Assembly (NCBI GenBank): GCA_023129715.1
Contig: JAGMBO010000012.1
Location: forward strand, 1 to 34,603
Origin: Candidatus Eiseniibacteriota bacterium
GTDB lineage: Bacteria > Eisenbacteria > RBG-16-71-46 > CAIMUX01 > WJJG01
Direction: 5' to 3'
Length of the DNA stretch: 34,603 nt
The notes beneath the pieces were generated by a model, which saw nothing but the letters and a program-made list of their open reading frames with translations, did not search any database and had not been told where the DNA came from. The translations under genes were made by a program, and so were the position numbers. How positions within the stretch are numbered: the first letter of the stretch is position 1; each line of letters opens with the position of its first letter. Below, piece by piece: positions 6,737-34,466 of this stretch.

Positions 6737-6968
6737 CTCTTCTCTCCATCCGTGCCGCCGGCCAGTCCCGGGCCGTGTGCGGGTCTCCCGGCACTGTGCG
6801 GCCCAGAGACGCGGTGGCTCACTCGCAGTTCGCAGCCCTATCGCCCCTGCACGCTCCACGGCGGGAGGTGCCCCTCTCATCCTCTATCGGCGCAAGGAAC
6901 TGCGACGGTGCGTGAAAAAAAACTTCCCCAGGTGCGGCGGACGGGACAGGAGCGCGGCGGCAATCAAT

Positions 6969-17276: not shown

Positions 17277-17353
17277 TCGGGATGAGGAAAGCCGACCTGC
17301 TCCGGCAAGGTCGGGACGAGGACAGCCGAACTGCTCCAGTGAGGTCAGGATGA
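17277..17353 (+). repeat. 34-bp direct repeat overlapping the RND start codon
   Basis: Copies begin at 17277, 17311 and 17345 (tcgggatgag, tcgggacgag, tcaggatgag). The first two are near-complete, and the third is cut after about 9 bases, where the RND coding sequence begins. The repeat includes the aggtc-ggatgag translation-start region, so the gene's start appears to have been tandemly duplicated and the upstream copies left as leader. Confidence 0.85.
17282..17353 (+). other. Possible 23-codon leader ORF coupled to the RND gene
   Basis: ATG at 17282 opens a frame of 23 codons (MRKADLLRQGR...) whose TGA at 17351-17353 overlaps the RND ATG at 17350 as ATGA. It is formed wholly by the 34-bp repeat. 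Only weak ribosome-binding sequence precedes it. It may simply be a by-product of the duplication, or it may couple translation to the pump gene. Confidence 0.3.
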
Positions 17354-20300
17354 GAATCGTTGAAGGGTCGATGCGCCGACCGGTGACGGTCACGATGGTC
17401 ACCCTAGCCGCCGTGCTTTTTGGCATGGTCGCGCTCTCGCGCCTGCCGCTCAACCTGCTGCCTGAAATTTCCTATCCGACCTTGACCGTCCGGACCGAGT
17501 ACACCGATTCCGCCCCGGCCGAAGTCGAGAAGCTGATCACCGAACCGCTCGAAGAAGCCGTCTCGGTGATCCAGGGATTGCGTCACCTGCGTTCGAGTTC
17601 CCGTCCCGGCGTTTCCGAGATCACCCTTGAATTCGCCTGGAAGACGAACATGGATTACGCGGCTCTGGATGTCCGCGAGAAGATCGACCTCGTCGATCTC
17701 CCGGAGGATGCCGAGAACCCCGTCCTGTTACGCTACGACCCCTCGCTCGATCCGATTCTGCGCATCGGGCTCTATGGCGACAAGGACCTCGTTACCCTGC
17801 GTTATCTCGCCGACCGCGTGTTGAAGAAGGACCTCGAATCGCTCGAGGGGGTCGCCTCGGTGCGCGCGCATGGCGGACTCGAAGAAGAGATCCATGTCGA
17901 TGTCGACGAGGGCAAGCTGGCAACCTTGGGCATCCCGATTTCGGCGGTCTCGCGATTCCTCGAGGCCCAGAATGTCAATGCCGCCGGCGGCCGCCTCCGC
18001 GACCGCGATGCGGAGTTCCTGGTCCGCACGGTCAACGAGTTCGAGTCGCTCGACGATATTGGTGCGGCGACGCTCTACGAAGATGCCGGGCGCCGAGTGC
18101 GCCTCAAGGATGTCGCCACCGTCAGCCGCGGTCACAAGGAGCGGGAGATCATCTCGCGCGTGCAGGGCAAGGAGGCCGTCGAGCTAGCCGTCTACAAGGA
18201 AGGCAACGCCAATACAGTTCATGTCGCGCGCGACGTGAAACACAGGCTGGCCTGGCTCGATGAAGCCCTGCCGGCGGGTGTCCACACCCGCGTGCTCTTC
18301 GATCAATCGACCTTCATCGAGCAGTCGCTGGCTGAGGTGCGCTCGAACGCGCTGCTGGGAGGTCTGCTGGCCGTCTTCGTTCTCTATCTCTTCCTGCGTG
18401 AGCGCCGCAGCACCCTGATCGTCGCCCTTATCATTCCGATCTCGGTTGTGGCGACCTTCTTCATCATGCAACAGCTCGGCGTCTCACTCAACATCATGTC
18501 GCTCGGCGGGCTGGCGCTCGGGGTCGGGATGTTGGTCGACAATGCGATCGTCGTGCTCGAGGCGATCACCCGGCAGCGCCAAGAGGGCAAGTCGCTGTGG
18601 GACGCAACCCGCGATGGAGCCAATGAGGTCTCGCGCGCGGTCACCGCCTCGACGCTGACGACGGTTGCGGTCTTCCTGCCGATCATCTTCGTCGAAGGAA
18701 TTGCCGGGCAGATCTTCCGCGACCAGGCCCTGACGGTGACCTCCTCGCTGCTCGTCTCCCTGGTTGCGGCGCTAACGCTGATTCCGGTTCTCGGCACACT
18801 CGGCGAGCGCCGGCGGCAGGCTGCCGCCGCGCTCGAGGGCGGTGAGGGACCGGCCACCGGGGCCCCGTCCGGTGATCGACCCGGCCCTGGAGGCGTGATC
18901 CCGCCCCCGGGGAGCGCACCGGCGAGCGATGGGACGCCCAGGCGGGGTGTCCCGGCAGGGGGGCCTGCTGCAGCGCCTGTTCCCGGACATCTCCGCCGGA
19001 TCCTGCGTGCCGTCGGCCGAGTGATCTTCTTCCCCTTCAAGCTCACTTTCCGCGGACTGCGCTTCCTCTTGGTTTGGGGCGGCCGGATCTTCGCCATGCT
19101 GCTGCCCGGCCTCGCCCTCAAGGGGATCCGCCTCGTCGCCCGACTGCTGGCCGGGCTGCTCGGCCTGCTGCTGCGCCCCATCCAGGCCGTCTTCGATCGC
19201 GCGTGGGCTGCCTTGGCCGCCGCCTATCCTCGCCTGTTACAGGCCGCGCTGGGGCACCGCGCCCGGACGTTGGGCGCCGCCGGGGTGCTGGCCGCCGCGG
19301 CTCTGCTGCTGATTCCCCAGCTCGGCGTCGAGCTGGTGCCGCCCTTCTCCCAAGGCGAGTTCACCTTCGAGCTCGAACTTCCGCCGGGAACGCCGCTGGC
19401 GGTCACCGAACGCAAGGTCGCCGCTCTCGAAGCCGACCTCGTGGGAGATCCGCGCATCGCGACCCTCTTCGGCGTCATCGGCGACAGCCCTGAGCTGGGC
19501 AGTGCCGCCATCGAGCGGCGCGAGAACGTCGCTCAACTCAATCTGTCGATTCGCGACCCGGGCAACCGCCGGCAGGAAATGGCGGTGATCGAGATGGTCC
19601 GCGAGCGCCTCGCCGCCCACCCCGAGATCCGCCATACCTTCCGGCGACCGTCCTACTTCAGCTTCAAGACCCCGATCGAGGTCCATGTCTTCGGCCACGA
19701 TCTGGAGGCCCTCGGGAGCTACTCGGCCGCCCTCGCGCAGACGATGGCGCAGGTGCCCGGTCTGCGCGATGTGCGCAGCAGCCTCGAGGAAGGCAGCCCC
19801 GAGGTGCAGATCTCCTTCCGGCGTGAACGGGCCGCCGATCTCGACCTCGATCTCGAATCGATCTCGCGCACCCTGCGCAACAAGATCCGCGGCGAGGTGG
19901 CCACCCGGCTCAAAGAGCGCGATCGGCAACTCGATATCCTCGTGCGGACCGCGCGGGCGAGCGAGCTCGAGGTCGCGGAAGTCACCGATCTGATCGTGGG
20001 ACAGGCAGGGGGGATCCCAATTCCGCTCTCCACGGTCGCCGATGTCGTGGTGGGTATGGGCCCTTCCCAGATCACCCGCATCGGACAACAACGGGCTGCG
20101 ATCGTGCGTGCCAACCTGGTTGGGCGCGACCTGGGCAGCGCCAGCCGCGAGATCGAGGCGCTGCTGCGCCATCATCCCCCACCCCCGACTCTGGCGGCGA
20201 GCCTCGGGGGGCAAAACAAAGAGATCTCGACGTCCTATCGCAGCCTGGCGCTGGCCGCCTTCCTGGCGATTTTCATGGTCTATCTCGTCATGGCCAGCCA

Positions 20301-20727
20301 GTTCGAGTCGTTCCTCCATCCGCTGGTAATTCTCTTCACCGTGCCGCTGGGCGGCGTCGGCGTCGTTCTCGCATTGGTGCTGACCAAGACGGCCATCAGT
20401 ATCGTGGTGCTCATCGGCGTGGTCATGCTGACCGGCATCGTGGTCAACAATGCGATCGTCTTGATCGACTTCATCAATCAGCGGCGCCGGGCGGGACTGG
20501 CGAAGATCGACGCGATCATCGAGGGCGCCCAGGCGCGCCTGCGCCCGATCTTCATGACCACCCTGACGACGGTGCTGGCCCTGCTGCCGATGGCGCTCGG
20601 GCTTGGACAGGGAGCAGAACTGCGTGCGCCGCTGGCAGTCGCCGTCATCGGCGGCCTCACCCTGGGCACCCTGCTGACGCTGGTCGTCATCCCAGTGGTC
20701 TACGCCACCTTGGATCGGAATCCCTAG
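17350..20727 (+). CDS. RND-family efflux pump inner-membrane subunit with large central insertion (1125 aa)
   Basis: Proton-driven trimeric exporter subunit (AcrB/MdtB-like HAE group). The start at 17350 (MRIVEGSMRRPVTVTMV) matches the family's N-terminal TM1 lead, with GAGG 5 nt upstream. Two homologous halves are present: TM1 at about 12-30, porter domain 35-330, TM2-6 at about 335-480, then the second half from about 640. TM4 has D397-N398 (MLVDNAIVV), so only the first Asp of the AcrB D407/D408 pair is kept. TM10 reads GIVVNNAIVLIDF, with Asn in place of the AcrB lysine, a pattern seen in many HAE pumps. Residues 485-637 between TM6 and TM7 are about 110 longer than usual: a Gly/Pro/Ala-rich segment and then basic hydrophobic helices. 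It lies 146 bp after the adaptor and 25 bp before the second RND gene, suggesting an operon and possibly a heteromeric pump. Confidence 0.94.
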   Translation: MRIVEGSMRRPVTVTMVTLAAVLFGMVALSRLPLNLLPEISYPTLTVRTEYTDSAPAEVEKLITEPLEEAVSVIQGLRHLRSSSRPGVSEITLEFAWKTNMDYAALDVREKIDLVDLPEDAENPVLLRYDPSLDPILRIGLYGDKDLVTLRYLADRVLKKDLESLEGVASVRAHGGLEEEIHVDVDEGKLATLGIPISAVSRFLEAQNVNAAGGRLRDRDAEFLVRTVNEFESLDDIGAATLYEDAGRRVRLKDVATVSRGHKEREIISRVQGKEAVELAVYKEGNANTVHVARDVKHRLAWLDEALPAGVHTRVLFDQSTFIEQSLAEVRSNALLGGLLAVFVLYLFLRERRSTLIVALIIPISVVATFFIMQQLGVSLNIMSLGGLALGVGMLVDNAIVVLEAITRQRQEGKSLWDATRDGANEVSRAVTASTLTTVAVFLPIIFVEGIAGQIFRDQALTVTSSLLVSLVAALTLIPVLGTLGERRRQAAAALEGGEGPATGAPSGDRPGPGGVIPPPGSAPASDGTPRRGVPAGGPAAAPVPGHLRRILRAVGRVIFFPFKLTFRGLRFLLVWGGRIFAMLLPGLALKGIRLVARLLAGLLGLLLRPIQAVFDRAWAALAAAYPRLLQAALGHRARTLGAAGVLAAAALLLIPQLGVELVPPFSQGEFTFELELPPGTPLAVTERKVAALEADLVGDPRIATLFGVIGDSPELGSAAIERRENVAQLNLSIRDPGNRRQEMAVIEMVRERLAAHPEIRHTFRRPSYFSFKTPIEVHVFGHDLEALGSYSAALAQTMAQVPGLRDVRSSLEEGSPEVQISFRRERAADLDLDLESISRTLRNKIRGEVATRLKERDRQLDILVRTARASELEVAEVTDLIVGQAGGIPIPLSTVADVVVGMGPSQITRIGQQRAAIVRANLVGRDLGSASREIEALLRHHPPPPTLAASLGGQNKEISTSYRSLALAAFLAIFMVYLVMASQFESFLHPLVILFTVPLGGVGVVLALVLTKTAISIVVLIGVVMLTGIVVNNAIVLIDFINQRRRAGLAKIDAIIEGAQARLRPIFMTTLTTVLALLPMALGLGQGAELRAPLAVAVIGGLTLGTLLTLVVIPVVYATLDRNP

Positions 20728-20752
20728 GCGGGGACGAAGGAGCTTCAGGGCA

Positions 20753-23700
20753 ATGCATCTCTCCGAACACGCCATCCGCCGGCCGGTGACGGTTCTCGTC
20801 GTGACCGCCGCCCTCCTCATGTTGGGTGCGGTCAGCGTCAGCCGCCTCAAACTCGACTTCCTGCCCAAGATGGACATGCCCTTCATCGGCGTCTATGCCC
20901 CCTACCCCAATGCGGTCCCCGCGCAGGTCGAGAAGGAGATCGCCCGCCCGATCGAGGAGATCATGGCGACCCTGGGGAACACCCGCGAGATCTTCTCCGA
21001 ATCCGACGAGGATGGCGCCTTCGTCGGAGTGCTCTTCGAATTCGGCCGCAGCGTCGATGTGCTGCGCATGGAGGTCAAAGAGAAGCTCGAGCAGGTTCGC
21101 CCCTTGCTCCCTTCCGACCTGCGCGACACGTTCATTTTCACGTTCAATACCAACGACATCCCGATCATGGTCGGGCGGATCAGCGCGCCGGGCACGGATC
21201 TGGCCGGATCTTACGAACTGCTCGAACGCCGCGTGATCAACCCCCTGCAACGGGTCGAGGGCGTCGGCCGTGTACAAGTTGATGGCATCGCACCGAAGAG
21301 CATCCGCATCTACCTGTTGCTCAACAAGATCATCGAGCACTCGATCGATGTCAGCCGGCTCTTCGAATTGCTCAATGCCAACAACCTCGATCTCTCGGTG
21401 GGCCAGGTCCGCCACGGCCGCCAGCGGGTGACGGTGCGGGCCCTGGGCCAGTTCCGCTCTTTGGAAGACATCGAGAACCTCCTGGTCAGCGAGGCCGGAC
21501 TGCGCCTGGGCGATATCGCCGAGATCGACTACAGCGAGCCGGCCCCCAGCTACTATCGCAACTTGAACGGCGAGTCGGCGATCGCCTTCGAGATCCAGAA
21601 GGCCTCCGGCGCCAACATCGTCGAGGTCTCGCGCAGCGTTCACGACGTGCTCGCCGAAATCGGCCGCGACCCCGCCCTGGCGGGCATCAATGTGGTCCTC
21701 TTCTTCGATCAGGCGGCGGAGATTAAGAATTCCCTGAAGAGCGTACTCCAGGCGGGCGTGATCGGATCGTTGCTCGCCATCGCGGTGCTCTTCCTCTTTC
21801 TGCGGCGTGTGCGCACGACCCTGATCATTTCGGTGGCCATCCCGATCTCGGTCATCTCGGCCTGCGTGTTCCTCTTTCTGACCGGCCGCTCCCTGAACAT
21901 ACTCACGATGATGGCGCTCATGTTGGCGGTCGGCATGCTCGTCGACAACGCCATCGTCGTCCTCGAATCGATCTACCGCCGCCATGAAAAGGGGGAAGTG
22001 GGGCCGCAGGCGGCCCATCTCGGCACACGCGAGGTGGCCATGGCGGTAACCGCCTCGACGCTTACCTCGATCATCGTCTTCGCCCCGATCATCTTGACCA
22101 AGGGCGACGCGATGAGTGTCTGGCTGGGAGAGGTCGGCCTGACGATCTCGATGACGTTGATCTTCTCTCTTCTGATCTGCCTGACGCTGGTGCCCCTGCT
22201 CGCCTCGCGCATGCCGGTCACCGGCCAGCAGCAAGAAGGGCGCTGGTTGCAGAGCTTGCGCCGGCGCTATCTACGGGTCTTGCAGTGGACCGCGATCCGG
22301 CACCCGAAGCGCACGGGATTCGTCTTCATCCCGCTCTTCTTGGTCGTCACCGTCGCCGCGATCCAGATCAGCGGATTCCAGCCTGAGGAGATGGAGGGCA
22401 GCGGCGTCCGTCAGGAGCGCCTCTACCTGTGGCTCGAGTTCAGCGACAATACCAACATCTATGGCGTGCGCGACTATGTCGAGAAGATCGAGTCGTTCCT
22501 ACTGCCGCGGCGTGATTCGCTCGGTGTCGAGTCGCTCTACACGTTCTACCGGGATAACCTCGCCGGGTTCAGCCTCTACTTCCCGAAGGAGAGCCCGTTC
22601 AGTGACAGCGCGGTGCGCGAACTGCGCCAGTACTTGCGCGAGGAGCTCCCGGTGCTGCCGGGGATCAAGTATCGCTTCGGCGACGATGAAGACGCCGGCC
22701 GGGGGGCGCGCACGATATCCGTAACCCTCTTCGGCGAGGACACCGAGTTGCTCGAGGGTTTCGCCGAAGAGGTCCAGCGGCGTCTGAACCTGCTCGGCGG
22801 ACTCGAAGATGTCCGCACCGACATCGACGAGGGCAGCGATGAGGTGCGCGTGATCCTCGACCGCGTCCAGGGGGGCCGCTACGGCGTCGATTCGCGCCAG
22901 CTCGCTCAGATCCTCGGTTTGACCTTCCGCGGTGTCCCCCTGCGCGAATTCCAGAGCGCCGATCGCGAGATCGATATGGATATCGTCCTGGAACCCTCCG
23001 ACCGGAGAAACATCGACAACCTCGCCAAGCTCCCGATCAGCTACCGCGAGGCGCGCCCGATCCGCCTCGGCCAGGTGGCACGGTTCGAGATCGCCAAGGG
23101 CCCTCAGCGGATCCACCGCGAACAGCAGAAGACGGCGATCGGCATCCGCGGGAGCTACGAGGGCGAGGAATACCCGCAGATGATCGACCAGGTCACCAGC
23201 ATGATGACCTCCCTGGAGCTGCCGACCGGCTACAGCTGGTCCTTCGGCCGCGAACTGCGTGAGGCGCGCCGCGAACAGAACGACATGGGGATCAACATCC
23301 TCTTGGCCCTCTGCTGCGTCTACCTCCTGATGGCGGCACTCTTCGAGTCCTTCCTCCACCCCATGGTGATCATGCTCTGCATCCCCTTCGCCGCCCTGGG
23401 CGTCGTCTGGACGCTGATGCTCACCGGCACGCAGTTCAATCTCATGGCGATGATCGGCGTCGTGATCCTGATCGGCATCGTTGTCAACAACGGCATCGTG
23501 CTCCTCGATCACGTCAACAATCTGCGCCGGCGCGGCTACGATCGGACCACCGCGATCATGGAGGGGTGCCGCGATCGGTTCCGGCCCATCCTGATGACCG
23601 CGGCGACGACGATTCTCGGCCTCTCGCCTCTGGCGCTCGGGAAGGCCGATGTCAGCGGCGGCTACTACTTCCCACTGGCGCGCGCCGTCATGGGCGGGCT

Positions 23701-23857
23701 GGCGACGAGCACCGTGCTGACCCTGCTGGTCTTGCCGACCTTCTACGTGCTCGCCGAATCGACGATGGCCAAGGTCAAGCGCACCCTCGCCTGGGGTCTC
23801 GGCCGGGCCGGATTGCCCTGGAAGGAGGAGCTGCCGGGGGCTTCCGCCGGCCGCTGA
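20753..23857 (+). CDS. RND-family efflux pump inner-membrane subunit (1034 aa)
   Basis: Second, clearly different RND protein of normal family length. The start at 20753 has AAGGAG 10 nt upstream. TM1 is at about 11-29 (TVLVVTAALLMLGAVSV), with the first porter region to about 330. TM4 contains D398-N399 (MLVDNAIVVLESIY). The TM6-TM7 connection is about 40 residues (SRMPVTGQQQEGRW...), the normal size. The second porter half follows (GDDEDAGRGARTISVTLFGED, RVQGGRYGVDSRQLAQIL), and TM10-12 end in GIVVNNGIVLLDHVNNLRRRG and FRPILMTAATTILGL. Its porter half has few charged relay residues beyond D398. Being adjacent to another RND subunit and one adaptor recalls MdtABC, in which two different subunits make one trimer. 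No outer-membrane factor follows. Substrate unknown. Confidence 0.94.
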   Translation: MHLSEHAIRRPVTVLVVTAALLMLGAVSVSRLKLDFLPKMDMPFIGVYAPYPNAVPAQVEKEIARPIEEIMATLGNTREIFSESDEDGAFVGVLFEFGRSVDVLRMEVKEKLEQVRPLLPSDLRDTFIFTFNTNDIPIMVGRISAPGTDLAGSYELLERRVINPLQRVEGVGRVQVDGIAPKSIRIYLLLNKIIEHSIDVSRLFELLNANNLDLSVGQVRHGRQRVTVRALGQFRSLEDIENLLVSEAGLRLGDIAEIDYSEPAPSYYRNLNGESAIAFEIQKASGANIVEVSRSVHDVLAEIGRDPALAGINVVLFFDQAAEIKNSLKSVLQAGVIGSLLAIAVLFLFLRRVRTTLIISVAIPISVISACVFLFLTGRSLNILTMMALMLAVGMLVDNAIVVLESIYRRHEKGEVGPQAAHLGTREVAMAVTASTLTSIIVFAPIILTKGDAMSVWLGEVGLTISMTLIFSLLICLTLVPLLASRMPVTGQQQEGRWLQSLRRRYLRVLQWTAIRHPKRTGFVFIPLFLVVTVAAIQISGFQPEEMEGSGVRQERLYLWLEFSDNTNIYGVRDYVEKIESFLLPRRDSLGVESLYTFYRDNLAGFSLYFPKESPFSDSAVRELRQYLREELPVLPGIKYRFGDDEDAGRGARTISVTLFGEDTELLEGFAEEVQRRLNLLGGLEDVRTDIDEGSDEVRVILDRVQGGRYGVDSRQLAQILGLTFRGVPLREFQSADREIDMDIVLEPSDRRNIDNLAKLPISYREARPIRLGQVARFEIAKGPQRIHREQQKTAIGIRGSYEGEEYPQMIDQVTSMMTSLELPTGYSWSFGRELREARREQNDMGINILLALCCVYLLMAALFESFLHPMVIMLCIPFAALGVVWTLMLTGTQFNLMAMIGVVILIGIVVNNGIVLLDHVNNLRRRGYDRTTAIMEGCRDRFRPILMTAATTILGLSPLALGKADVSGGYYFPLARAVMGGLATSTVLTLLVLPTFYVLAESTMAKVKRTLAWGLGRAGLPWKEELPGASAGR

Positions 23858-24125: not shown

Positions 24126-24155
24126 TTGATAAGATACTGGCACTCATGGTATTAT
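24126..24155 (+). promoter_or_regulatory. Sigma-70-like promoter for the secreted protein at 24259
   Basis: TTGATA (24126-24131) and TATTAT (24150-24155) are separated by 18 bases, a good match to the housekeeping consensus and AT-rich against a GC-rich background. Transcription would start near 24162, giving a leader of about 97 bases. Confidence 0.6.
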
Positions 24156-24258
24156 GTGCTGCGTCGGTGGAGAGTATCAGCTCAGCCGACGTTCCACTTC
24201 TGTGGTTCGGGGGATCCAAGTGACGGTAGCATCCAATCAGCGTGAAGGAGGACAGCGA

Positions 24259-25017
24259 ATGAGGTTCAGCAACCGTGTTCTACCCTGGGCGTTCGTCTTG
24301 ATCGGAGTGGCGGTTTTCAGCACCCCAGCGATGGCAGAGCCAGGTGATCCCTTGGAGGCGACGATCAGCCTAGGCCGTGATCCCGAGCCCCCCTTCTGTG
24401 CGGCCAATCCCGGGGGAACGGTCGAGATCACCTGGAACATCGACTATTCGACGACACCGAACTATGTCTACTACAAGCTCGAGGATCCGAGTCGCACGAT
24501 CATCCTCGAAGAGGAAACCTATCCTGGAGCCACCGGCACCTCGATCACCCGCAATTGGACGGTGCCCAATGGGCTCGTCGATGGGAAATACTGGGTCCGC
24601 GTCGAGTACTGGTCCCTCGAGGCAGGCAACGAGGCCAACGCCGAGGTGACCTTCTACGTGTGCACGGGCGTTGGGACGATCTGTGCCGAGAAGTGGGAAG
24701 ACATCGACTGCGACGGCATCTTGACGCCGGGCATCGATCAGCCGGTTCCCGACTGGTGGATTTGCCTCGAGACGCCCTTCAACGAGACCTATTGCCTGCA
24801 GACCAACGCAGAGGGCATTGTCTGCTGGGAAGGGATCGCCCTGGGCGACTACACCGTCTACGAGCCCGCTCTCGGCGAGTGGACGCCGATCGGGCCGACC
24901 GCAGTGGAGCTGACGCTGGAGGAAGGCGAGACCGAGACGGTCATCTTCTTCAATCACCGCTGCCCCTCAGACAGGGACGATTCGACATGGGGCAAGGTAA
25001 AGTCGTTCTTCCTGTAG
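24259..25017 (+). CDS. Exported SdrD/SpaA-like Ig-fold protein with eight cysteines (252 aa)
   Basis: Predicted secreted protein of unknown role. The start at 24259 has AAGGAGG (24245-24251) 7 nt upstream. Signal peptide MRFSNRVLPWAFVLIGVAVFSTPAMA is followed by a probable cleavage at A26. Residues about 30-135 look like a beta-sandwich (VEITWNIDY, YWVRVEYW) with no family I recognise. Residues 143-235 resemble the SdrD B-like / SpaA-like prealbumin fold: KWEDIDCDGILTPGIDQPVPDWWICL contains a Ca-binding-type D148-D150-D152-G loop, and GIALGDYTVYE is the typical late strand. Eight cysteines (47, 135, 142, 151, 169, 179, 189, 235) suggest disulfides outside the cytoplasm. It has its own promoter, stands alone and is convergent with the GNAT at 25114. 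There is no LPXTG motif or C-terminal sorting domain. Confidence 0.8.
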   Translation: MRFSNRVLPWAFVLIGVAVFSTPAMAEPGDPLEATISLGRDPEPPFCAANPGGTVEITWNIDYSTTPNYVYYKLEDPSRTIILEEETYPGATGTSITRNWTVPNGLVDGKYWVRVEYWSLEAGNEANAEVTFYVCTGVGTICAEKWEDIDCDGILTPGIDQPVPDWWICLETPFNETYCLQTNAEGIVCWEGIALGDYTVYEPALGEWTPIGPTAVELTLEEGETETVIFFNHRCPSDRDDSTWGKVKSFFL

Positions 25018-26138: not shown

Positions 26139-26167
26139 TTGAACCCAGCGTCAATGGACGATATGAT
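26139..26167 (+). promoter_or_regulatory. Strong sigma-70-like promoter upstream of the seven-repeat propeller gene
   Basis: TTGAAC (26139-26144) and TATGAT (26162-26167) with exactly 17 bases between them make the best promoter match in the window. Transcription near 26174 would leave a leader of about 187 bases before the start at 26361. No riboswitch or other structured RNA was recognised in that leader. Confidence 0.65.
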
Positions 26168-26360
26168 GGATATCGAGGCAACTTGGAGAAAGGCCCGCGG
26201 CGACGCGGACCGGGCATCCCTGGTGAATACCCGATTGAGCAGCTCAGTACGACATGCTCATACCGACCGTGCGTTTCTCCTGGGCCACAGGCAGCGGGGA
26301 CATTAGCACCCCGGCCTGACCGAATGAGTGTCGGCACTCGACGACCCAACGAGGGAACGC

Positions 26361-27536
26361 ATGAACAGCAAGATGATTCAGCCGTTGTCGGCAGTGGCGC
26401 AACTGATGGTCCTACTGGCAATGCTTGCGGCCACGTCTGTGGCCGTTTCAGCCCAGATCGACGGCGCCGCCAACGGCAATCTGGCCTTGATCTCGAACGG
26501 CGAGAAGGCCTTCGGTTACAGCACCTATTCGATGCTCTGGAGTTCGGTCGAGCTCGAGGGCGTGCGCCTCGCCTCCGAGACGAGCCCGTCATTGGGTTTC
26601 ATTCTGACCACCGAGAAGCTCTTTGCCTACAACGCCGTCAGCGGCGGCTGGTTCAAGGCCAACTACACCGGCCCCCCCTGTGGATACGACGTCAACGGGG
26701 CCGCGATCATCTTCTGGACCGAGGACGCTGCCTACGGGATCTCTACGGTTTGGGCCCGGTGGGCGCGTAAGAGCCTCAAGCAGGAGGAGACGCCACTCGA
26801 CGGAGCCTCGGCGGGCAATTTCGGCCTGCTCTGGACGAGTCACAACGCCTACGCGTACAACGGGAGTTCCGGGCAGTGGATGTCCAAGCAATTGGGATCG
26901 CCTCCGGTCGGTGGAATCGCCAGTGATGGTCTGGGGCTCGTCTGGACCAACCTGGAAGCCTATGCCTTCGAGCCGAGTCCCGGCGCATGGATGCACCTCG
27001 ACCTGATGGGCTATCCGATGGGCATGAGCGCCGATGGCTCGGGCGATGTGGCTCTGGTCTGGAGTTCGAATGCCGCCTTGGTCTACAGCAGTCAGTCCAG
27101 AGAGTGGTTCACGTTCCCGTGCTACATCGATGCCGCCTGCGCCGCCGGGGATATCGCCCTCGTCTGGAACGAGGAGTTGGCCTACAGCTTCGATGTCAAT
27201 CGGGGCACCTGGTCGGCAGTGTCGATCAGGGCCCGCGAGCCGGCGGGACTCGTCGAGCCGGCACCGGGCGGCGCCTCCTTCTCGGTCGGGCCCAATCCCT
27301 GTGCCGCGGGACCACTCGCCTTCCGTCTTCCCGCGGGGAACAAGTGGGAGATCAGCGTCGTCGATCTCGAGGGACGCACGATCCGCACAATGGAAATGCC
27401 TGCGGCCTCACACGCGCGCACGGTGGAGTGGGACTGGCGGGACGATCAGGGAAGGCCGATACCGGCAGGGACCTACTGGGTACGCGCGACGTCGGAGACG
27501 CGCCGCGAGGCCCGGCGAGTCATCCGCCTGCAGTAG
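26361..27536 (+). CDS. Exported seven-repeat beta-propeller-like protein with FlgD-like C-terminal domain (391 aa)
   Basis: Predicted secreted protein with no enzyme motif; I do not recognise the family. The start at 26361 follows GAGGGAA (26351-26357). A signal peptide spans about 1-31 (LMVLLAMLAATSVAVSAQ). Seven units of about 38 residues begin at G39, S77, G113, G152, G190, G228 and G263, each close to G-x-x-x-L-hydrophobic-W-[ST]-x4-A-Y-x-[YF]-x4-G-x-W, for example GLLWTSHNAYAYNGSSGQW. Seven regular units with a closing Trp strand strongly suggest a seven-bladed propeller with very short blades. Residues about 300-391 (FSVGPNPCAAGPLAFRLP... GRPIPAGTYWVRA) are a FlgD Ig-like sorting domain like the one at the end of the protein at 1133. 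It has its own strong promoter and a long leader. Confidence 0.8.
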   Translation: MNSKMIQPLSAVAQLMVLLAMLAATSVAVSAQIDGAANGNLALISNGEKAFGYSTYSMLWSSVELEGVRLASETSPSLGFILTTEKLFAYNAVSGGWFKANYTGPPCGYDVNGAAIIFWTEDAAYGISTVWARWARKSLKQEETPLDGASAGNFGLLWTSHNAYAYNGSSGQWMSKQLGSPPVGGIASDGLGLVWTNLEAYAFEPSPGAWMHLDLMGYPMGMSADGSGDVALVWSSNAALVYSSQSREWFTFPCYIDAACAAGDIALVWNEELAYSFDVNRGTWSAVSIRAREPAGLVEPAPGGASFSVGPNPCAAGPLAFRLPAGNKWEISVVDLEGRTIRTMEMPAASHARTVEWDWRDDQGRPIPAGTYWVRATSETRREARRVIRLQ

Positions 27537-27827: not shown

Positions 27828-27856
27828 TTGACATTTTGGTCAAATAGTTCAATTAT
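27828..27856 (+). promoter_or_regulatory. Promoter of the TetR-RND operon
   Basis: A perfect TTGACA (27828-27833) is followed after 17 bases by AATTAT (27851-27856); a 19-base spacing to TTATCT (27853-27858) is the alternative. The region is the most AT-rich in the window. Transcription would start near 27863, giving a leader of only about 16 bases carrying GGAGG (27869-27873) before the TetR start. Confidence 0.65.
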
Positions 27857-27878: not shown

Positions 27879-28559
27879 ATGAGGACACCTCGCAGGGACG
27901 GTGCCGAGACCCGCAGCCGCATCATCGAGGCCGCGTCCGTCGTCTTTGCTGCCGCCGGGTTCCGCCTCGGAACGGTGGCCCAGATCGCGGAGCTTGCCGG
28001 GGTCAATCACGCCGCCGTCAACTACCACTTCGGAGGCAAGGAGGAGCTCTATCGGCGAGTCTGGATCCATGCCCGCGAGGTCTGCCTGCAAGCCTACCCA
28101 CTGAAGCCGCGGGGACCGGACGAGCGCTCGACGGAGAATGCACTGCGCAGCTTCATTCGATCCTTGGTGCTGCGAAGCTTCGATGATGGGCCCGCTGGGC
28201 ACCTCACGCGACTCATCGCGTTCGAGATCACCGACCCGCTGGACCACATTGCCGACCTGCGCCTCGAGACGATGCGCATGCATGCGTCACGACTGGATGA
28301 GATCGTGAGCGCAGTCCTCGGACCCGCCGCGATCCCGAACACCCTTCAGTTGTGCCGCCTGAGCATCCTATCCCCAACCGTGGGGCTGGGTGTGCGCATG
28401 GTGCGTCACGCGGAGCAGCCCCAGGTCGCGCGGCTGCGCAAGAGCGATCCGGAGCAACTGGCGGACGGGGTCTTTCGTTTCGCGTGGGCAGGGCTACAGG
28501 ATCTGAAGCGAAACCGATCACGGTCGGATCACAGGACTGTGAAAGAGGAGCACAAATGA
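27879..28559 (+). CDS. TetR/AcrR-family transcriptional regulator (226 aa)
   Basis: DNA-binding repressor, first gene of the efflux operon. The N-terminal helix-turn-helix is classic: TRSRIIEAASVVFAAAGFRLGTVAQIAELAGVNHAAVNYHFGGKEELY (residues 11-58), with recognition helix HAAVNYHF. The C-terminal part (ENALRSFIRSLVLRSF, GHLTRLIAFEITDPLDHI) resembles the DUF1956/CecR-type ligand-binding domain. GGAGG lies 5 nt before the ATG. Its TGA overlaps the ATG of the outer-membrane factor gene (ATGA). The inverted repeat at 27845-27868 is the probable binding site; the inducer would be a pump substrate, identity unknown. Confidence 0.93.
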   Translation: MRTPRRDGAETRSRIIEAASVVFAAAGFRLGTVAQIAELAGVNHAAVNYHFGGKEELYRRVWIHAREVCLQAYPLKPRGPDERSTENALRSFIRSLVLRSFDDGPAGHLTRLIAFEITDPLDHIADLRLETMRMHASRLDEIVSAVLGPAAIPNTLQLCRLSILSPTVGLGVRMVRHAEQPQVARLRKSDPEQLADGVFRFAWAGLQDLKRNRSRSDHRTVKEEHK

Positions 28560-29998
28560 GATACCTGCACCGGCGAGGCGCCCGGATTGCGGCAGCGCTC
28601 CTGATCCTCGGGGCGACGGGCTGCAGTGTCGGGCGTCAATCGGTACCGGCGATGACTGACTGGCCGGAATCGTTCTCGCGAGACGGCCAGGCGATGACGG
28701 CCGAGGGAGCGATGCCGGCCGAGCATTGGTGGACGGCGTTCTCGGATCCCCAGCTCGATTTGCTGATCGCCGAGGCTCTCACAGGCAGCCCCGATCTAGC
28801 CGCCTGGTGGGACCGGCTTGATCAGGCGCGCTCGCTCGCCCGCAAAGCGGGAGCCTCCCAGTGGCCGCAGCTCGAGCTCGATGGCGGCGCTTCGCGCACC
28901 GGGCGCTGGCCGGATGAGGCACCCGACACATATGCCAACGACTTCAGCGCGCAGCTGTTCGCGAGCTACGAGATCGATTTGTGGGGACGCGTGCGATCAA
29001 GTAAGGAAGCCGCCGTCAACAGCGCCCGAGCGAGCGAGCAGGATTTTCGCGCCGCCGCGATCTCGCTGAGCGCGAATGTTGGCGCCACCTGGTATGAGCT
29101 GGCCGAGGCCCGTGAGCAGCTGGCGGTGCTCGAGGAGCAACTGGCGGCGAACGCGCAGATTCTGGAGTTGGTCACATTGCGCTTCCAGCACGGTCGGGTA
29201 GGGGCCAGCGATGTCCTGCTGCAGCAACAGCTCGTCGAGTCCACGCAAGGCGATCGCGCGCTTGCGCAGGCGCGTATCAAAGTTCTGCAGCACCAGCTGG
29301 CCGTTCTGCTCGGTCGCCCCCCGAGTGACGCGCCCGATATCTCTGCCGCGCAGCTGATCGAGCTCCCGGCACCTCCCGCAACGGGGGTTCCGGCCGAACT
29401 GCTGCAGCGACGTCCGGATCTGCAAGCCGCTTGGCTTGAAGTGGCCGCGGCGAATGCTCGACTCGCCGCGGCTGTGGCCGAGCGCTACCCGCGCCTCTCA
29501 ATCTCCGCTGGCGGCCAGACCGGAGCGGCCGAGGTCATGGATCTCTTCTCCGATTGGCTGGGGAACCTCGCCGCGAACCTGATGATGCCGCTGATCGACG
29601 GCGGAAGCCGCGCCGCCGAGGCGGATCGCCAGGAAGCCGTCGCCCGGCAAGCGCTGCATGCCTATCGCAGCACTGTGCTGACAGCCTTGCAAGACGTAGA
29701 GAATGCGCTGGTTCGCGAGGAGAGGCAGGCCGAGTACCTGGCGAGTCTCAGGCGGCAGGTCGAGTTGACTCGGGTGATCTTCGATCGAACCAAGGACGAT
29801 TACCTCGGTGGGCAGACCGACTACCTCCGCGTCCTACAAGCCCAGACTTCTCTGCACAGTCTGCAGCGCAGGCTACTCACGGCCGAACGTGAACTCATTC
29901 AATACCGCATCGATCTGTGCCGCGCCCTCGGGGGGCGCTGGACACTCGAGCGTCCCGCTGTTGCGGGCTTTGAAGAGGATGGGAGGGTGTCATCATGA
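28556..29998 (+). CDS. Outer-membrane efflux lipoprotein, OprM/NodT family (480 aa)
   Basis: TolC-like trimeric outer-membrane channel. The start at 28556 has AGAGGAG 5 nt upstream and overlaps the TetR stop. The signal peptide ends in lipobox LGATGC with Cys23, as in NodT/OprM-type factors that are lipid-anchored. Two OEP repeats are visible: the first from HWWTAFSDPQLDLLIAEAL (about 57-75) with long helices to about 260, including LFASYEIDLWGRV; the second from ELLQRRPDLQAAWLEVAAANARLAAAVAERYPRLSI, continuing to LQDVENALVREERQAEYL and YRIDLCRALGGRW. Its stop overlaps the next gene (ATGA). It is the only outer-membrane factor in the window, so it may also serve the adaptor and pumps at 15863-23857, which lack one. 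Confidence 0.95.
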   Translation: MRYLHRRGARIAAALLILGATGCSVGRQSVPAMTDWPESFSRDGQAMTAEGAMPAEHWWTAFSDPQLDLLIAEALTGSPDLAAWWDRLDQARSLARKAGASQWPQLELDGGASRTGRWPDEAPDTYANDFSAQLFASYEIDLWGRVRSSKEAAVNSARASEQDFRAAAISLSANVGATWYELAEAREQLAVLEEQLAANAQILELVTLRFQHGRVGASDVLLQQQLVESTQGDRALAQARIKVLQHQLAVLLGRPPSDAPDISAAQLIELPAPPATGVPAELLQRRPDLQAAWLEVAAANARLAAAVAERYPRLSISAGGQTGAAEVMDLFSDWLGNLAANLMMPLIDGGSRAAEADRQEAVARQALHAYRSTVLTALQDVENALVREERQAEYLASLRRQVELTRVIFDRTKDDYLGGQTDYLRVLQAQTSLHSLQRRLLTAERELIQYRIDLCRALGGRWTLERPAVAGFEEDGRVSS

Positions 29999-31326
29999 GC
30001 GGGCACTTCCTGAGTGGACGCTTCCTGAAAAGAGCCTGGCCTACGGTCGCGATTCTGCTGCTGGGTCTGATCCTGACAATTGTGATCGCGACCAGCGGCC
30101 CCGAGGCACCCAAACGGCCGTCGGCGGAGCAGGCGCGGCTGGTCGAGGTGTTGCCGCTCGAGCTGGTCGACGCGCGCGTCATCGTCTCCGCGATGGGCAC
30201 GGTTCGGCCGGCGCGGGAAGTCGACATCACCGCGCAGGTTGTCGGGAAAGTGGTCGAGATGGGCCCCGCCCTGATCCCCGGCGGATATGCCGTCGCGGAC
30301 GAACCTCTTCTGCGCATCGATCCGCGCGACTACGAGTTCGTGGTGCGTCAGCGGCAGAGCGATCTGGCACGCGCTGAACAGGAGTGGAAGCTGGAGAGCG
30401 GGCAACAGGAGATCGCGAAGCGGGAGTATGCGCTCCTCGAGACGGTGATCGATGAATCGACCTCCGAGCTCGTGCTGCGCGAGCCGCAGCTCGCAACGGC
30501 GCGCAGCACCCTGGATGCTGCCCGAGCCACGCTACAGAAGGCTGAACTGGATCTGCAGCGCACCACCGTGCGAGCGCCGTTCAACTGCATCGTGCTCGAG
30601 AAGCACGTCGATCTGGGGGCCGTAGTGAATACCAACTCACCGGTCGCCAAGGTCGTCGGAACCGATGCCTTCTGGGTCGAGGTCGCTGTCCCGCTCGAGA
30701 AGCTGCGATGGATCGCGATCCCTGCGGATGCCGACGCGGAGGGTTCGGTGGTTCGAATCCGGCAGCCGTCGGTCCAGCCAGAGGGTCCCTGGCGCGAAGG
30801 ACGCGTCCTGAGACTGATGGGGGATCTGGAGACCGAAGGGCGCATGGCGCGTCTGCTGGTGGAAGTCGCCGACCCCTATGCCCGCCAGCCCGAGAATGCC
30901 GATGCTCCCGCCCTGCTCGTGGATGCGTTCGTGGAAGCCGAGATCATCGGCCGGGAACTGCATGACGTCATCCGTGTCCCGCGCCGCTACCTCCACAACA
31001 GTCGCAGCGTCTGGCTGCGCACCAGCGAGGGACGGCTCGAGATCCGTGACGTGGTCCCGACCTACTCCGGCGAAGAAGCGCTGCTCGTCGCCGAGGGGCT
31101 GGAGGCCGGAGAGGAGCTCGTAACCAGCAACATCTCTGCTCCGGTGCCCGGCATGCCGCTTCGTGTGCAAGGCGAGACCGCGCGATCCACAGGCAGCCGC
31201 GAGGACCATCCGATCGCAGGAGCCGGCGAGGGGCAGCCGTCCGAGAAAGCCGGTGAAGGGCAACCGTCCGAGGGGGCCGGTGAAGTGCAGTTGCCCGAGA
31301 AGGACGGAGAGGAGTTGCCGCGATGA
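29995..31326 (+). CDS. RND efflux periplasmic adaptor with repeated acidic C-terminal tail (443 aa)
   Basis: Membrane fusion protein of the third RND system. One N-terminal TM (TVAILLLGLILTIVIATS, about 17-34) anchors it; there is no lipobox, unlike the adaptor at 15863. Lipoyl halves (VSAMGTVRPAREVDITAQVVGKV and LDLQRTTVRAPFNCIVLEKHVDLGAVV) flank a coiled coil at about 118-190 (RQRQSDLARAEQEWKLESGQQEIAKREYALLE). A beta-barrel (FWVEVAVPLEKLRWI) and membrane-proximal domain (IRVPRRYLHNSRSVWL) follow. The last 34 residues are repeats of AGEGQPSEK type encoded by 27-bp units. ATGA overlaps join it to both neighbours, so stoichiometric co-translation is expected. Confidence 0.94.
   Translation: MSGHFLSGRFLKRAWPTVAILLLGLILTIVIATSGPEAPKRPSAEQARLVEVLPLELVDARVIVSAMGTVRPAREVDITAQVVGKVVEMGPALIPGGYAVADEPLLRIDPRDYEFVVRQRQSDLARAEQEWKLESGQQEIAKREYALLETVIDESTSELVLREPQLATARSTLDAARATLQKAELDLQRTTVRAPFNCIVLEKHVDLGAVVNTNSPVAKVVGTDAFWVEVAVPLEKLRWIAIPADADAEGSVVRIRQPSVQPEGPWREGRVLRLMGDLETEGRMARLLVEVADPYARQPENADAPALLVDAFVEAEIIGRELHDVIRVPRRYLHNSRSVWLRTSEGRLEIRDVVPTYSGEEALLVAEGLEAGEELVTSNISAPVPGMPLRVQGETARSTGSREDHPIAGAGEGQPSEKAGEGQPSEGAGEVQLPEKDGEELPR
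31222..31322 (+). repeat. 27-bp in-frame repeat at the adaptor C-terminus
   Basis: Units start at 31222, 31249, 31276 and 31303 (the last partial). They encode AGEGQPSEK, AGEGQPSEG, AGEVQLPEK and DGEELPR, an acidic, presumably disordered periplasmic tail. The repeat runs up to the stop codon, immediately before the pump gene. Confidence 0.9.
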
Positions 31327-34300
31327 AGACCAACGACGCGCGCGGTCCGATCGCCTGGATGGCCCGGAATCACGTGACGGCGAACGTCCTCATGATGGTG
31401 CTCCTGGTGGGCGGGCTCTTCACGACGACGCGCATCAAGCAGGAGGTCTTCCCCGAGTTCTCCCTCGACATGGTATCGGTGTCGGTGGCTTATCCGGGAG
31501 CATCGCCGGAGGAGGTCGAGCAGGGGATCGTCCTGGCGGTCGAGGAGGCGATTCGCGGTATCGACGAAATCAAGGAGGTCGAGGCGACGGCGCGCGAGGG
31601 CATGGGGATCGTCAACGCCGAACTGCACACCGGCGTGGATGCACAGAAGGCCTACCAGGAGATCGATCAGGAGGTTGCGCGCATTGTGACGTTCCCCAGG
31701 GACGCCGAGGAGCCGCAGGTCAAGCTGGAGAGCCGCCGCCGCCGCGTTCGCGAACTCACGCTCTACGGGGAGATTGATGAGCTGGTCCTGCGCGAGCTGG
31801 CCGAAGAAGTCCGCGATCGACTTCTGCAATCCCCGGGGATCACTCAGGTCGACCTGCTGGGCGTCCGCCGGCTCGAGATCCATGTCGAGATCCCGCAGGA
31901 GAACCTGCGCGCATACGGGCTGACCCTCGAGGGCGTGGCGAACACGATCTCCGCCTCGGCGCTGGAGCTGCCCGGTGGTTCCATACGAACAGACGGGGGC
32001 GAGATCCTCCTGCGCGTCACCGAGCGCCGGGACTGGGCCGAGGAGTTCGCCGAGCTACCGCTGATCACGACGGCCACCGGGTCCCGGTTGCGGCTGGGTG
32101 AGATCGGTCGGGTGCGGGAGGGTTTCGAGGAGACCAACATCGAACGCCAGTTCAAGGGCCTGCCCTGCGTGAGTATCGAGGTCTATAGCACCGCGAACCA
32201 GACCCCGGGCGGCGTGGCGGATGCCGTGGATGAGATCCTGGTGGATATCCGCGCCGCCCTTCCACCGGGTGTCGCGATTGCGATTACCAACGACATGGCC
32301 GACATGTACGCGCAGCGGCTGACCCTACTGCTCAAGAACGCATTTATCGGTCTCGTGCTGGTGCTGATCCTGCTGGGGCTGTTCCTCGATCTGCGCCTGG
32401 CCTTCTGGGTAACGATGGGCATTCCGATCTCGTTTCTGGGAGGACTGCTCTTCCTTCCTTGGCTGGGCGTGACGATCAACATGGTCTCGATGTTCGCATT
32501 CATCGTGGCGTTGGGCATCGTCGTCGATGATGCCATCGTTGCTGGTGAGAACATCTACGAGTATCGGCAGCGCGGGATGGGATTTCTGCCGGCCGCCATC
32601 CAGGGCGCGCGAGATGTAGCCGTGCCGATCACCTATGCGATTCTCACCAACATCGTAGCCTTCCTGCCGCTGGCTTTCATCCCCGGCGTGATGGGCAAGA
32701 TCTGGATCTCCATACCGATCGTCGTAATCACTGTCTTCGTCATCTCCTGGGTCGAGGCCCTCTTCATCCTGCCGGCCCACCTGACGGACGCGGGCCGCCG
32801 GCGACGGGGCCGGATCGAACGCTGGATTGCCGCGCGGCAGACGCGCTTTGCCGAGGGACTGCAGCGCTTCATCCGGGGGCCCTACGCTCGGCTGCTGAGC
32901 CTGAGCTTGCGTAATCGCGCCGTGACCGTGGCGATAAGCCTGGCCGTGCTCATGGTCGTCTTGGCGTACGCCATGAGTGGGCGCATGGGGTTTACCCTGA
33001 TGCCCAGGACGGAATCCGACTTCGCCATCGCCACGGCCGTGCTGCCCTATGGTACCCCCGAGAAAAGCGTGCGGGAGGTCCGTGATGAGGTCGTGGCCGC
33101 GGCGTGCCGGGTCGTCGCCGCGCATGGCGGTGATCGCTTGAGCACCGGGATCCTGACCGCGGTCAACGAGAATCAGGTCGAGATCACCGTGTATCTGACG
33201 GATCCCGATGAGCGACCGATCAGCACCTCCCAATTCAGTCGGCAGTGGCGGCAGGCAGTCGGGACGTTGTCTGGCCTGGAGCGGCTGCGCTTCGAAACAG
33301 ACCGCCGTGGGATCGGAGGCGGAGCGTCTTTCACCGTGGAATTGGCGCACCGTGACATCGATGTCCTCGATCAGGCTAGCGCATCTCTAGCGGCGAGTTT
33401 GCGGGAGTTCAGCTACACGCGTGACATTGACGACGGTTACAGCCCAGGCAAGGAACAGCTCGACTTCCGCATCCGAGCCGAGGGTCGCGCACTGGGGCTG
33501 ACGGCCAGCGACATTGCCCGACAGGTGCGGTCCGCGTTCTATGGCGCCCAGGCGCTGCGCCAGCAACGGGGGCGCAACGAGGTTCGTCTGTTGGTGCGCC
33601 TCCCCGAGTCGCAGCGCACTCATGCGGCCGATGTGGAGAAGCTGCTGATTCGCACGCCGCGCGGGACCTGGGTCCCGCTGATGGAAGTGGCCGAGGTCGG
33701 GTACGGGCACGCCTACACGACCATCGCCCGACGGGATGGGCGACGAACGGTCAGTGTGACCTGTAACGTCGATCCGGAGGAGCAGACTTCAACGGTGCAG
33801 ACCTCACTCATGGAGGACGGGCTGCCTCAACTGGCCCTCAACTACCCTGGGTTGACCTATTCCTTCCAGGGGCGCCAAGCCGAAATGCAGGAGAGCCTGG
33901 CGGCACTGGCCGGGGGATTCACCCTCGCCATGCTGGCCGCATTCGCACTGCTGGCGATTCCGTTTCGCAGCTACAGTCAACCGCTGGTGATCATGGTGGC
34001 CATCCCGTTCGGTATCGTGGGGGCCGTCTTCGGGCATCTGATCATGGGCTACTCGTTGAGTGTGATGAGTATGATGGGTGTCGTCGCCCTCTCAGGCGTG
34101 GTCATCAACGATTCGCTGGTCCTGATCGATCAGGCCAACCGGCTGCGTCGCGAGGGGGCGACCGCTGTTGAGGCCATCCAGCAAGCCGGCCGGCGCCGCT
34201 TCCGACCGATCCTGCTCACGACTCTGACGACCTTCGGCGGCCTTGCGCCGATGATCTTCGAGACCTCACGCCAGGCGCGTTTCATGATCCCGATGGCATT

Positions 34301-34466
34301 GTCGCTGGGATTCGGGATTCTGTTCGCCACCGTGATCACACTGCTGCTGGTCCCCAGCCTGTACATGCTGCTGGAGGATCTGCGCGGTCTCTTCCGACGG
34401 ACGTCGGGAGACGAGTACACCGATGTCGGAATTGCGGGGAAGGGCGCGGTGCCGCAGACGGGCTGA
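31323..34466 (+). CDS. RND-family efflux pump inner-membrane subunit (1047 aa)
   Basis: Third RND pump, from a different subgroup than the two upstream. The start at 31323 overlaps the adaptor stop (ATGA). The N-terminus MKTNDARGPIAWMARNHVTANVLMMVLLVGG is typical of the NolG/HAE1-like group that pairs with a TetR and a NodT-type factor. TM4 carries a full D402-D403 pair (IVVDDAIVAGENIYEYR), as in AcrB. TM10 reads GVVINDSLVLIDQANRLRREG, with Asn-Asp where AcrB has the relay lysine region. Porter domains are of standard size, and the TM6-TM7 linker is normal (DAGRRRRGRIERW...). The protein ends with a short polar tail. Last gene of the operon. Substrate unknown; hydrophobic toxicants or lipids are typical. 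Confidence 0.95.
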   Translation: MKTNDARGPIAWMARNHVTANVLMMVLLVGGLFTTTRIKQEVFPEFSLDMVSVSVAYPGASPEEVEQGIVLAVEEAIRGIDEIKEVEATAREGMGIVNAELHTGVDAQKAYQEIDQEVARIVTFPRDAEEPQVKLESRRRRVRELTLYGEIDELVLRELAEEVRDRLLQSPGITQVDLLGVRRLEIHVEIPQENLRAYGLTLEGVANTISASALELPGGSIRTDGGEILLRVTERRDWAEEFAELPLITTATGSRLRLGEIGRVREGFEETNIERQFKGLPCVSIEVYSTANQTPGGVADAVDEILVDIRAALPPGVAIAITNDMADMYAQRLTLLLKNAFIGLVLVLILLGLFLDLRLAFWVTMGIPISFLGGLLFLPWLGVTINMVSMFAFIVALGIVVDDAIVAGENIYEYRQRGMGFLPAAIQGARDVAVPITYAILTNIVAFLPLAFIPGVMGKIWISIPIVVITVFVISWVEALFILPAHLTDAGRRRRGRIERWIAARQTRFAEGLQRFIRGPYARLLSLSLRNRAVTVAISLAVLMVVLAYAMSGRMGFTLMPRTESDFAIATAVLPYGTPEKSVREVRDEVVAAACRVVAAHGGDRLSTGILTAVNENQVEITVYLTDPDERPISTSQFSRQWRQAVGTLSGLERLRFETDRRGIGGGASFTVELAHRDIDVLDQASASLAASLREFSYTRDIDDGYSPGKEQLDFRIRAEGRALGLTASDIARQVRSAFYGAQALRQQRGRNEVRLLVRLPESQRTHAADVEKLLIRTPRGTWVPLMEVAEVGYGHAYTTIARRDGRRTVSVTCNVDPEEQTSTVQTSLMEDGLPQLALNYPGLTYSFQGRQAEMQESLAALAGGFTLAMLAAFALLAIPFRSYSQPLVIMVAIPFGIVGAVFGHLIMGYSLSVMSMMGVVALSGVVINDSLVLIDQANRLRREGATAVEAIQQAGRRRFRPILLTTLTTFGGLAPMIFETSRQARFMIPMALSLGFGILFATVITLLLVPSLYMLLEDLRGLFRRTSGDEYTDVGIAGKGAVPQTG

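Follow-up and report, generated by a model that had tools for sequence, protein, structure and literature searches.

A small family of seven-repeat, probably exported proteins with Kelch-like units and a FlgD-type tail in Candidatus Eisenbacteria

The window analyzed here, a 34,603-nucleotide stretch of a Candidatus Eisenbacteria contig, carries a propeller-like gene on the forward strand at positions 26361..27536. Read from the sequence, its frame opens with an ATG at 26361, closes with a stop codon at 27534-27536 and encodes 391 amino acids with a signal-peptide-like start and a FlgD-type tail; the whole gene is covered by a full-length alignment of orthologs (see below), and GAGG at 26351-26354 is a possible ribosome-binding site. 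The signal-peptide-like N terminus comprises residues 1-31 (26361..26453), in which V-S-A precedes Q32, suggesting export of the protein and cleavage at this point. The reading frame with a secreted-type start that an earlier note had described on this DNA is thus present, export itself being probable. The N terminus is followed by a repeat head at residues 34-288 (26460..27224) and by the tail at residues 306-390 (27276..27530), in which the Pfam entry PF13860 matched residues 329-380.

The gene is flanked by an oppositely oriented GNAT gene and by a TetR/RND efflux cluster. A link of the propeller gene to efflux was considered and rejected, as the flanking genes had no match in the stretches compared around the other loci. 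About 190 nt upstream of the ATG lies a sigma-70-like site, TTGAAC-17-TATGAT (26139..26167, forward strand), which agrees with the consensus at 9 of 12 bases and may serve as a promoter. The earlier note took this site for the best promoter in the window and expected good expression from it, but the same consensus scan gave two stronger sites with 10 of 12 bases each, at 24126-24155 and, just upstream of the tetR gene, at 27828-27856; the former expectation is incorrect and the latter loses its basis. The site at 24126-24155, the only one in which TG precedes the second hexamer, is located about 100 nt before the likely start of the neighbor gene described below. Rfam searched over the whole window at gathering thresholds yielded nothing. 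Elsewhere in the window, we observed a second FlgD-tailed protein, with FG-GAP_3 repeats (1115-2920), a Haem-NO-binding (HNOB) protein adjoining a hybrid histidine kinase with PAS, receiver and Hpt domains (3012-6880), which look like a gas-sensing pair, and three RND (AcrB-type) pump genes (17350-23857 and 27879-34466), two of them in tandem and the third standing with TetR, outer-membrane factor and HlyD-like genes.

The seven repeats of the protein are real. The mean BLOSUM62 self-score over residues 31-300 was +0.13 to +0.26 at lags of 37, 76, 113 and 150, against a best value of -0.06 in 300 shuffles, each evaluated over all lags, marking a strong periodicity of about 37 residues. The seven units, each 35-39 residues long, align nearly gap-free, namely residues 39-75 (26475..26585), 76-112 (26586..26696), 113-151 (26697..26813), 152-188 (26814..26924), 189-227 (26925..27041), 228-262 (27042..27146) and 263-299 (27147..27257), all on the forward strand. 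Six of them were found with both the unit alignment and the unit model; the divergent unit 3 was delimited by the unit alignment and missed by the unit model, the alignment of which excluded every blade-3 unit. The unit starts proposed earlier (residues 39, 77, 113, 152, 190, 228 and 263) differ from ours (39, 76, 113, 152, 189, 228 and 263) by at most one residue each. The motif W-[ST]...A-Y...G-x-W, which had been regarded as common to the seven units, holds in part. The unit-closing Trp at offset 21 occurs without exception, in all seven units of the window protein and in all 35 across the five orthologous proteins, but W-[ST] is seen in four of the seven window-protein units (unit 1 has S-N, unit 2 L-T and unit 7 W-N there), and G-x-W likewise in four (units 2, 4, 5 and 7). 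The motif is clearer across the ortholog family than in the window protein alone: offset 6 is Trp in 24 and offset 7 is Thr in 22 of the 35 units, and offset 14 is Tyr or Phe in 30, the remaining five being blade 3. Blade 3 possesses an additional invariant Trp (W131), Ile or Val in place of the aromatic residue at offset 14, and one or two extra residues. Blade-specific features, among them S54, N91 and the blade-3 motif [YF][GA][IV][AS][TS]xWxxW, are kept between orthologs, suggesting that the seven-unit layout predates the split of the genomes bearing it. With the unit model, no second protein carrying the same repeat was found in the genome of the window at E-values below 0.5.

With the head alone as the query, we detected one protein each in four genomes of the same order (G002, G005, G007 and G009) with E-values of 4e-44 to 3e-54 and identities of 31-38%, and all four were also recovered by the profile search. 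Orthologs are thus present in four of the 10 other genomes of the order (five of 11 when that of the window is counted), and the head-bearing genomes fall in the four sampled families of the order. The head was absent from the six other genomes of the order, one of them 97% complete, by both sequence and profile searches, and from all of the 36 remaining Candidatus Eisenbacteria genomes examined by profile. In another profile search, all 47 genomes matched, but the matches listed outside the five head-bearing genomes cover the C-terminal half, mostly the tail. Four of the five proteins align end to end with the tail included, while the G005 protein stops at a contig end just after unit 7. A match in G017 (E-value of 0.0072, 82 residues, single-sequence query) was rejected, as the protein looks TolB/PD40-like by eye and was not recovered with the head profile. 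Viral contigs contained no relative, and the PHROGs search gave weak matches only, to six families, each in a single member (best E-value of 0.0042). We also noted that, among 149 genomes around G182, the head profile matched 16 at E-values up to 0.001. Altogether, the window protein belongs to a small family that has no name in the databases searched.

The FlgD-like sorting domain that had been proposed to be fused to the repeats is borne out by the tail, which passes the cut-off of FlgD_ig (PF13860; 28.7 bits, cut-off 27), albeit not that of the type A sorting domain, TIGR04183 (18.2 bits, cut-off 23). When 150 of 225 candidates in the genome of the window were scored, 149 matches to the protein were obtained, all of which, the gene itself excepted, start at residue 220 or later. 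Our search of this genome for the type IX secretion system covered SprA and PorU, and both were found above their cut-offs: SprA with 376.6 bits (492.5 bits with frame neighbors; cut-off 200) and PorU with 484.3 bits (cut-off 420), neither of which passed in any of the 14 control genomes. The tail and these two genes make type IX export of the propeller protein likely. In the open-access literature, we found nothing on Eisenbacteria with type IX secretion, and nothing joining a propeller, FlgD and type IX secretion.

Library searches left the head without a family. No Pfam entry exceeded its cut-off on the head in any of the five proteins, and NCBIfam gave no match on the head of the window protein. 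Neither FG-GAP nor PQQ families of Pfam were among the matches of the five heads (at E-values up to 10 for FG-GAP), and Kelch_1 appeared in one of the five members, not the window protein, with a best E-value of 0.24, failing the cut-off of PF01344. Searching the PDB by sequence with the single protein returned FlgD tails and one weak cohesin match only, and the profile of the whole head returned unrelated matches at E-values of 0.6 or worse. The profile of the unit, on the other hand, gave 79 matches to PDB sequences at E-values up to 10, and all of the 60 listed are Kelch proteins or Kelch-derived designs. The very low E-values of the designs (SAKe-type) are inflated by their identical repeats; among the natural Kelch proteins, KLHL2 matched with an E-value of 2.8e-4 and KEAP1 from 8e-3, both as sums over repeats. 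A single stretch passing on its own was seen, among the natural Kelch proteins listed, only in the plant protein of PDB 5a10, a thiocyanate-forming protein, which we take to be Kelch. The alignment to Kelch is restricted to positions 10-36 of the unit profile.

The unit profile was further compared by hhalign with units of known propellers, with column shuffles as the control. Against 50 Kelch units from 10 proteins of the phylum, the score was 19.4 with a probability of 31.6% (shuffle maximum 16.4; 0 of 100 shuffles reached the score), and against the FG-GAP_2 units of L085, a propeller protein of the same genome, it was 18.5 with a probability of 11.7% (shuffle maximum 14.8; 0 of 100). PD40 (WD40-like) and FG-GAP_3 units were rejected as the nearest relatives, as 53 and 32 of 100 shuffles, respectively, reached the observed scores. 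A profile comparison of the kind suggested for the repeat in the earlier note thus places it above the shuffle level for Kelch and FG-GAP_2, yet with low probabilities for both. Likewise, the view that the unit fits no known family stands insofar as Pfam and NCBIfam hold no entry for the head, but the unit is not wholly unassignable, Kelch being the nearest family of solved structures, albeit at low probability. The resemblance to Kelch is above chance but short and weak, with two defining features of the family, the Pfam cut-off and the Gly-Gly doublet, not reached by the repeats of the window family. Thus, the head may work like Kelch blades and may perhaps be derived from them, but we do not file it as Kelch. 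According to PMC9218822, Kelch is among the propeller lineages, and a disrupted, formerly seven-bladed Kelch-like protein occurs in Verrucomicrobia.

AlphaFold2 modeled the window protein with a mean pLDDT of 81.9 and a pTM of 0.64 (means of ten-residue blocks between 75 and 97 over residues 31 to 290), and the head of the G009 ortholog alone with a mean pLDDT of 86.3 and a pTM of 0.79, each model resting on an alignment of only five sequences. In both models, 28 strands are predicted, which form seven four-stranded units, so that this part of the compact seven-bladed propeller envisaged in the earlier note was predicted from two different orthologs. The closed ring, which together with the lack of a known family match was to mark a new propeller type in the earlier note, was not recovered in the same way. 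Superposition of the two models on solved propellers by VIA-align 2 gave rmsd values of mostly 9-11 Å over about 220-270 residues, with Z of 9.6-12.0 among the matches listed, and the Foldseek TM scores by model length among the matches listed were 0.19-0.36 for the window protein and 0.31-0.42 for the G009 head. WD40, RCC1, IFT, BamB, PorZ and other propellers were listed at similar scores, and no family can thus be picked from the fold search; VIA-align re-scored the best 1000 chains of Foldseek, and the absence of Kelch entries from the matches listed excludes nothing. A fold match to PorU concerns the tail (89 residues, 2.3 Å), and that to PorZ covers the head and tail at 19.9 Å. In a toy geometry, which is crude and was used only to show how much closer than observed the superposition of a standard ring ought to be, a seven-blade ring of the same topology gave rmsd values of 1.2-1.6 Å and TM of 0.93-0.96, mild distortions gave 2.9-3.2 Å, and stronger departures (open, spiral, inside-out or reversed) gave 4.8-16.6 Å.

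Either the global arrangement in both models is wrong, or the head is something other than a standard closed ring. The former is plausible because of the five sequences per alignment. For some repeat proteins, AlphaFold2 is reported to yield models that are confident yet unrealistic (PMC11795689); the case described there is of beta-solenoids from artificial perfect repeats, and the word "propeller" is absent from the text. The presence of seven units in all of the five proteins favors a closed ring over an open solenoid, and we regard a seven-bladed toroid as the most likely arrangement of the head. If the units are read in the Kelch register, the strand of small residues (e.g., VGGIAS) would lie innermost and W-x4-L outermost, with GLVWT and then AYAYN in between, and the head would then comprise seven complete blades.

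Besides the propeller gene, a single gene is shared among the loci once alternative frames of the same genes and matches confined to the tail are set aside. This neighbor (24259..25017, forward strand; start codon deduced from homologs at the other loci) encodes a protein of 252 amino acids with a signal-peptide-like start, Ig-like and SdrD_B/SpaA-like parts (Pfam matches below cut-off) and the end STWGKVKSFFL, and has no NCBIfam match. The loci, of 34.6 kb (window), 19 kb (G007), 10 kb (G009), 7.5 kb (G002) and 4.3 kb (G005), were compared by an all-against-all search of ORFs of at least 90 amino acids at E-values up to 1e-6, in which the query frame for the neighbor was 24154-25014. A homolog lies near the propeller gene at four of the five loci, in tandem twice in G007; none was found in the 3.4 kb upstream at the G005 locus, where the contig breaks off within the propeller gene. 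The homologs share 52-58% identity with the neighbor of the window, more than the propeller proteins do (33-37%). The two genes are about 1.3 kb apart in the window with the GNAT gene between them, about 0.1 kb apart and convergent in G007, about 0.5 kb apart on the same strand in G009, and about 1.2 kb apart in G002 with a nucleoside-recognition (Gate) gene between them. As the orientation varies and another gene intervenes at two of the four loci, the pair is not an operon. A sample of 400 kb, about 8% of the genome, contained no paralog of the neighbor. The conservation of the neighbor points to a functional link with the propeller protein, while shared local ancestry alone is a possible cause.

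The homologs of the neighbor end with a WGx[IVL]K motif, and [ST]WGx[IVLM]Kxx[YF] is C-terminal in the neighbor itself (24982-25014) and in its homologs (L120, L044 and L045). In the 400-kb sample (L122-L141), the latter motif ends five of the 1864 ORF-like segments with 100 or more amino acids and is internal in one more; VPAE or VPNE stands just before it in three of these five. Alongside the FlgD type, the motif may represent another sorting tag; we found nothing on it in the open-access literature. The G009 neighbor (L044:143-2365) carries, before its WGQIK end, many Cys-rich repeats in a long array (PTGACCxPNGDC...).

Thirty-four positions of the head are invariant in the five proteins. 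Twelve of them are Trp, and the invariant residues are confined to G, W, S, A, T, I, L, F, Y and N; with no D, E, H, K, R or C among them, an enzyme or a metal site is unlikely, and we discarded this function for the head. We consider it probable that the protein is an exported, non-enzymatic binding scaffold at the cell surface with a Kelch-like seven-blade head, perhaps acting with its neighbor. The signal peptide would take the protein across the inner membrane, and the FlgD-type tail would hand it over to the type IX machinery, for which SprA and PorU are encoded and which would position it either on the outer membrane or outside it. In its mature form, the head would consist of seven compact Kelch-like blades, each of four strands and about 37 residues, most likely in a seven-bladed toroid, and would hold some partner or ligand on the cell surface. 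As the partner, the probably secreted Ig-like/SdrD-like neighbor (24259-25017) would be the best candidate, and the most obvious candidate contact residue is the invariant W131, which is unique to blade 3 and lies between the predicted strands 123-128 and 135-138. A more specific combination, in which Kelch-like blades form a non-standard toroid or spiral used at the surface with an Ig-like/SdrD-like neighbor that bears a second C-terminal tag, has in our estimate only a slight probability.

The abundance of conserved aromatic residues would also be consistent with a lectin-like propeller, of which each aromatic-rich unit binds part of a polysaccharide in a multivalent manner, with the neighbor being structural or unrelated. 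The Trp residues at offset 6 and at the end of the units, W131, the sorting-type tail and the type IX secretion genes all agree with such a protein. The conserved Trp of Kelch blades is structural, however, and the closing Trp of our units aligns with it, so that its conservation need not mean binding; moreover, none of the positions invariant across the 35 units is polar. We regard this function as unlikely. Descent from the FG-GAP/integrin branch of propellers, of which the head would be a compact relative, instead of the Kelch branch, is harder to credit. The units of L085, a protein that matches PF14312 with 371.6 bits, score nearly as high as Kelch and above all shuffles, but L085 had been picked because the unit model matched it weakly (E-value of 0.56), which makes the comparison not independent, and the hhalign probability is lower than that for Kelch. 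L085 also lies near the cut-off of Kelch_6 (25.2 versus 25.3 bits), so that the two groups are hard to separate. The heads bear neither an FG-GAP Pfam match nor an invariant acidic residue, and the listed PDB matches of the unit profile belong to Kelch throughout.

The poor superposition of both models, in the range of the stronger rearrangements of the toy geometry and far from its same-topology ring, would be explained if the head were assembled as an open spiral or a ring of a different sense and not as a standard propeller. Against this stand the shallow alignments and the artefacts on record for AlphaFold2 models of repeat proteins (PMC11795689), the constant number of seven units in every ortholog and the crudeness of the toy geometry, in which no single alternative gives the observed rmsd, Z and TM together. 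We deem such an assembly very unlikely and retain the surface binding scaffold as the preferred interpretation. The sequences define a small, probably exported family of repeat proteins with no name in the libraries searched, the Kelch-like units of which fall short of the Kelch units in this phylum by about 10 residues, and the conserved neighbor offers a testable lead to its function. No description of the propeller family was found in the open-access literature, which gives little on the secretion systems of Candidatus Eisenbacteria; the family adds a candidate surface module to this phylum.

Among known systems, small proteins of other lineages (L051, L054, L058, L062, L064 and L069) likewise combine Y-x-[FY] with G-x-W and matched the head profile with E-values of 6e-10 to 6e-4. 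By eye, they consist of about 4-5 similar units of 38-40 residues, a lower number than in the window protein, with no Pfam entry above cut-off and no FlgD match listed; L069 reaches 18.4 bits for PQQ_2 (cut-off 27.6). The FG-GAP_2 propeller protein L085 shares the Y-x-[FY]-x core with a Trp in register and has a tail-like C terminus (22.4 bits against the FlgD_ig cut-off of 27), but its units are of 55-57 residues and start with F-G, and no FG-GAP match is seen in the head of the window protein. With Kelch (PF01344; KLHL2, KEAP1 and SAKe), the units share an aromatic residue seven positions ahead of a Trp that stands at the turn joining the last two strands, a spacing displayed by Tyr or Phe at offset 14 in 30 and Trp at offset 21 in all of the 35 units. 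The Gly-Gly doublet that ends the second strand of a Kelch blade, and that we also saw in the Kelch units compared here, is replaced by W-[ST] in most units of the window family, and the unit length of about 37 residues contrasts with the about 45-48 residues between the Kelch units of L087. A Kelch protein with a FlgD_ig tail above cut-off is present in the same order (L086 of G008). The tail itself resembles FlgD_ig and type IX tails (PF13860 and TIGR04183) in its length of about 80 residues, its C-terminal position and the many tail-type matches spread over the genome.
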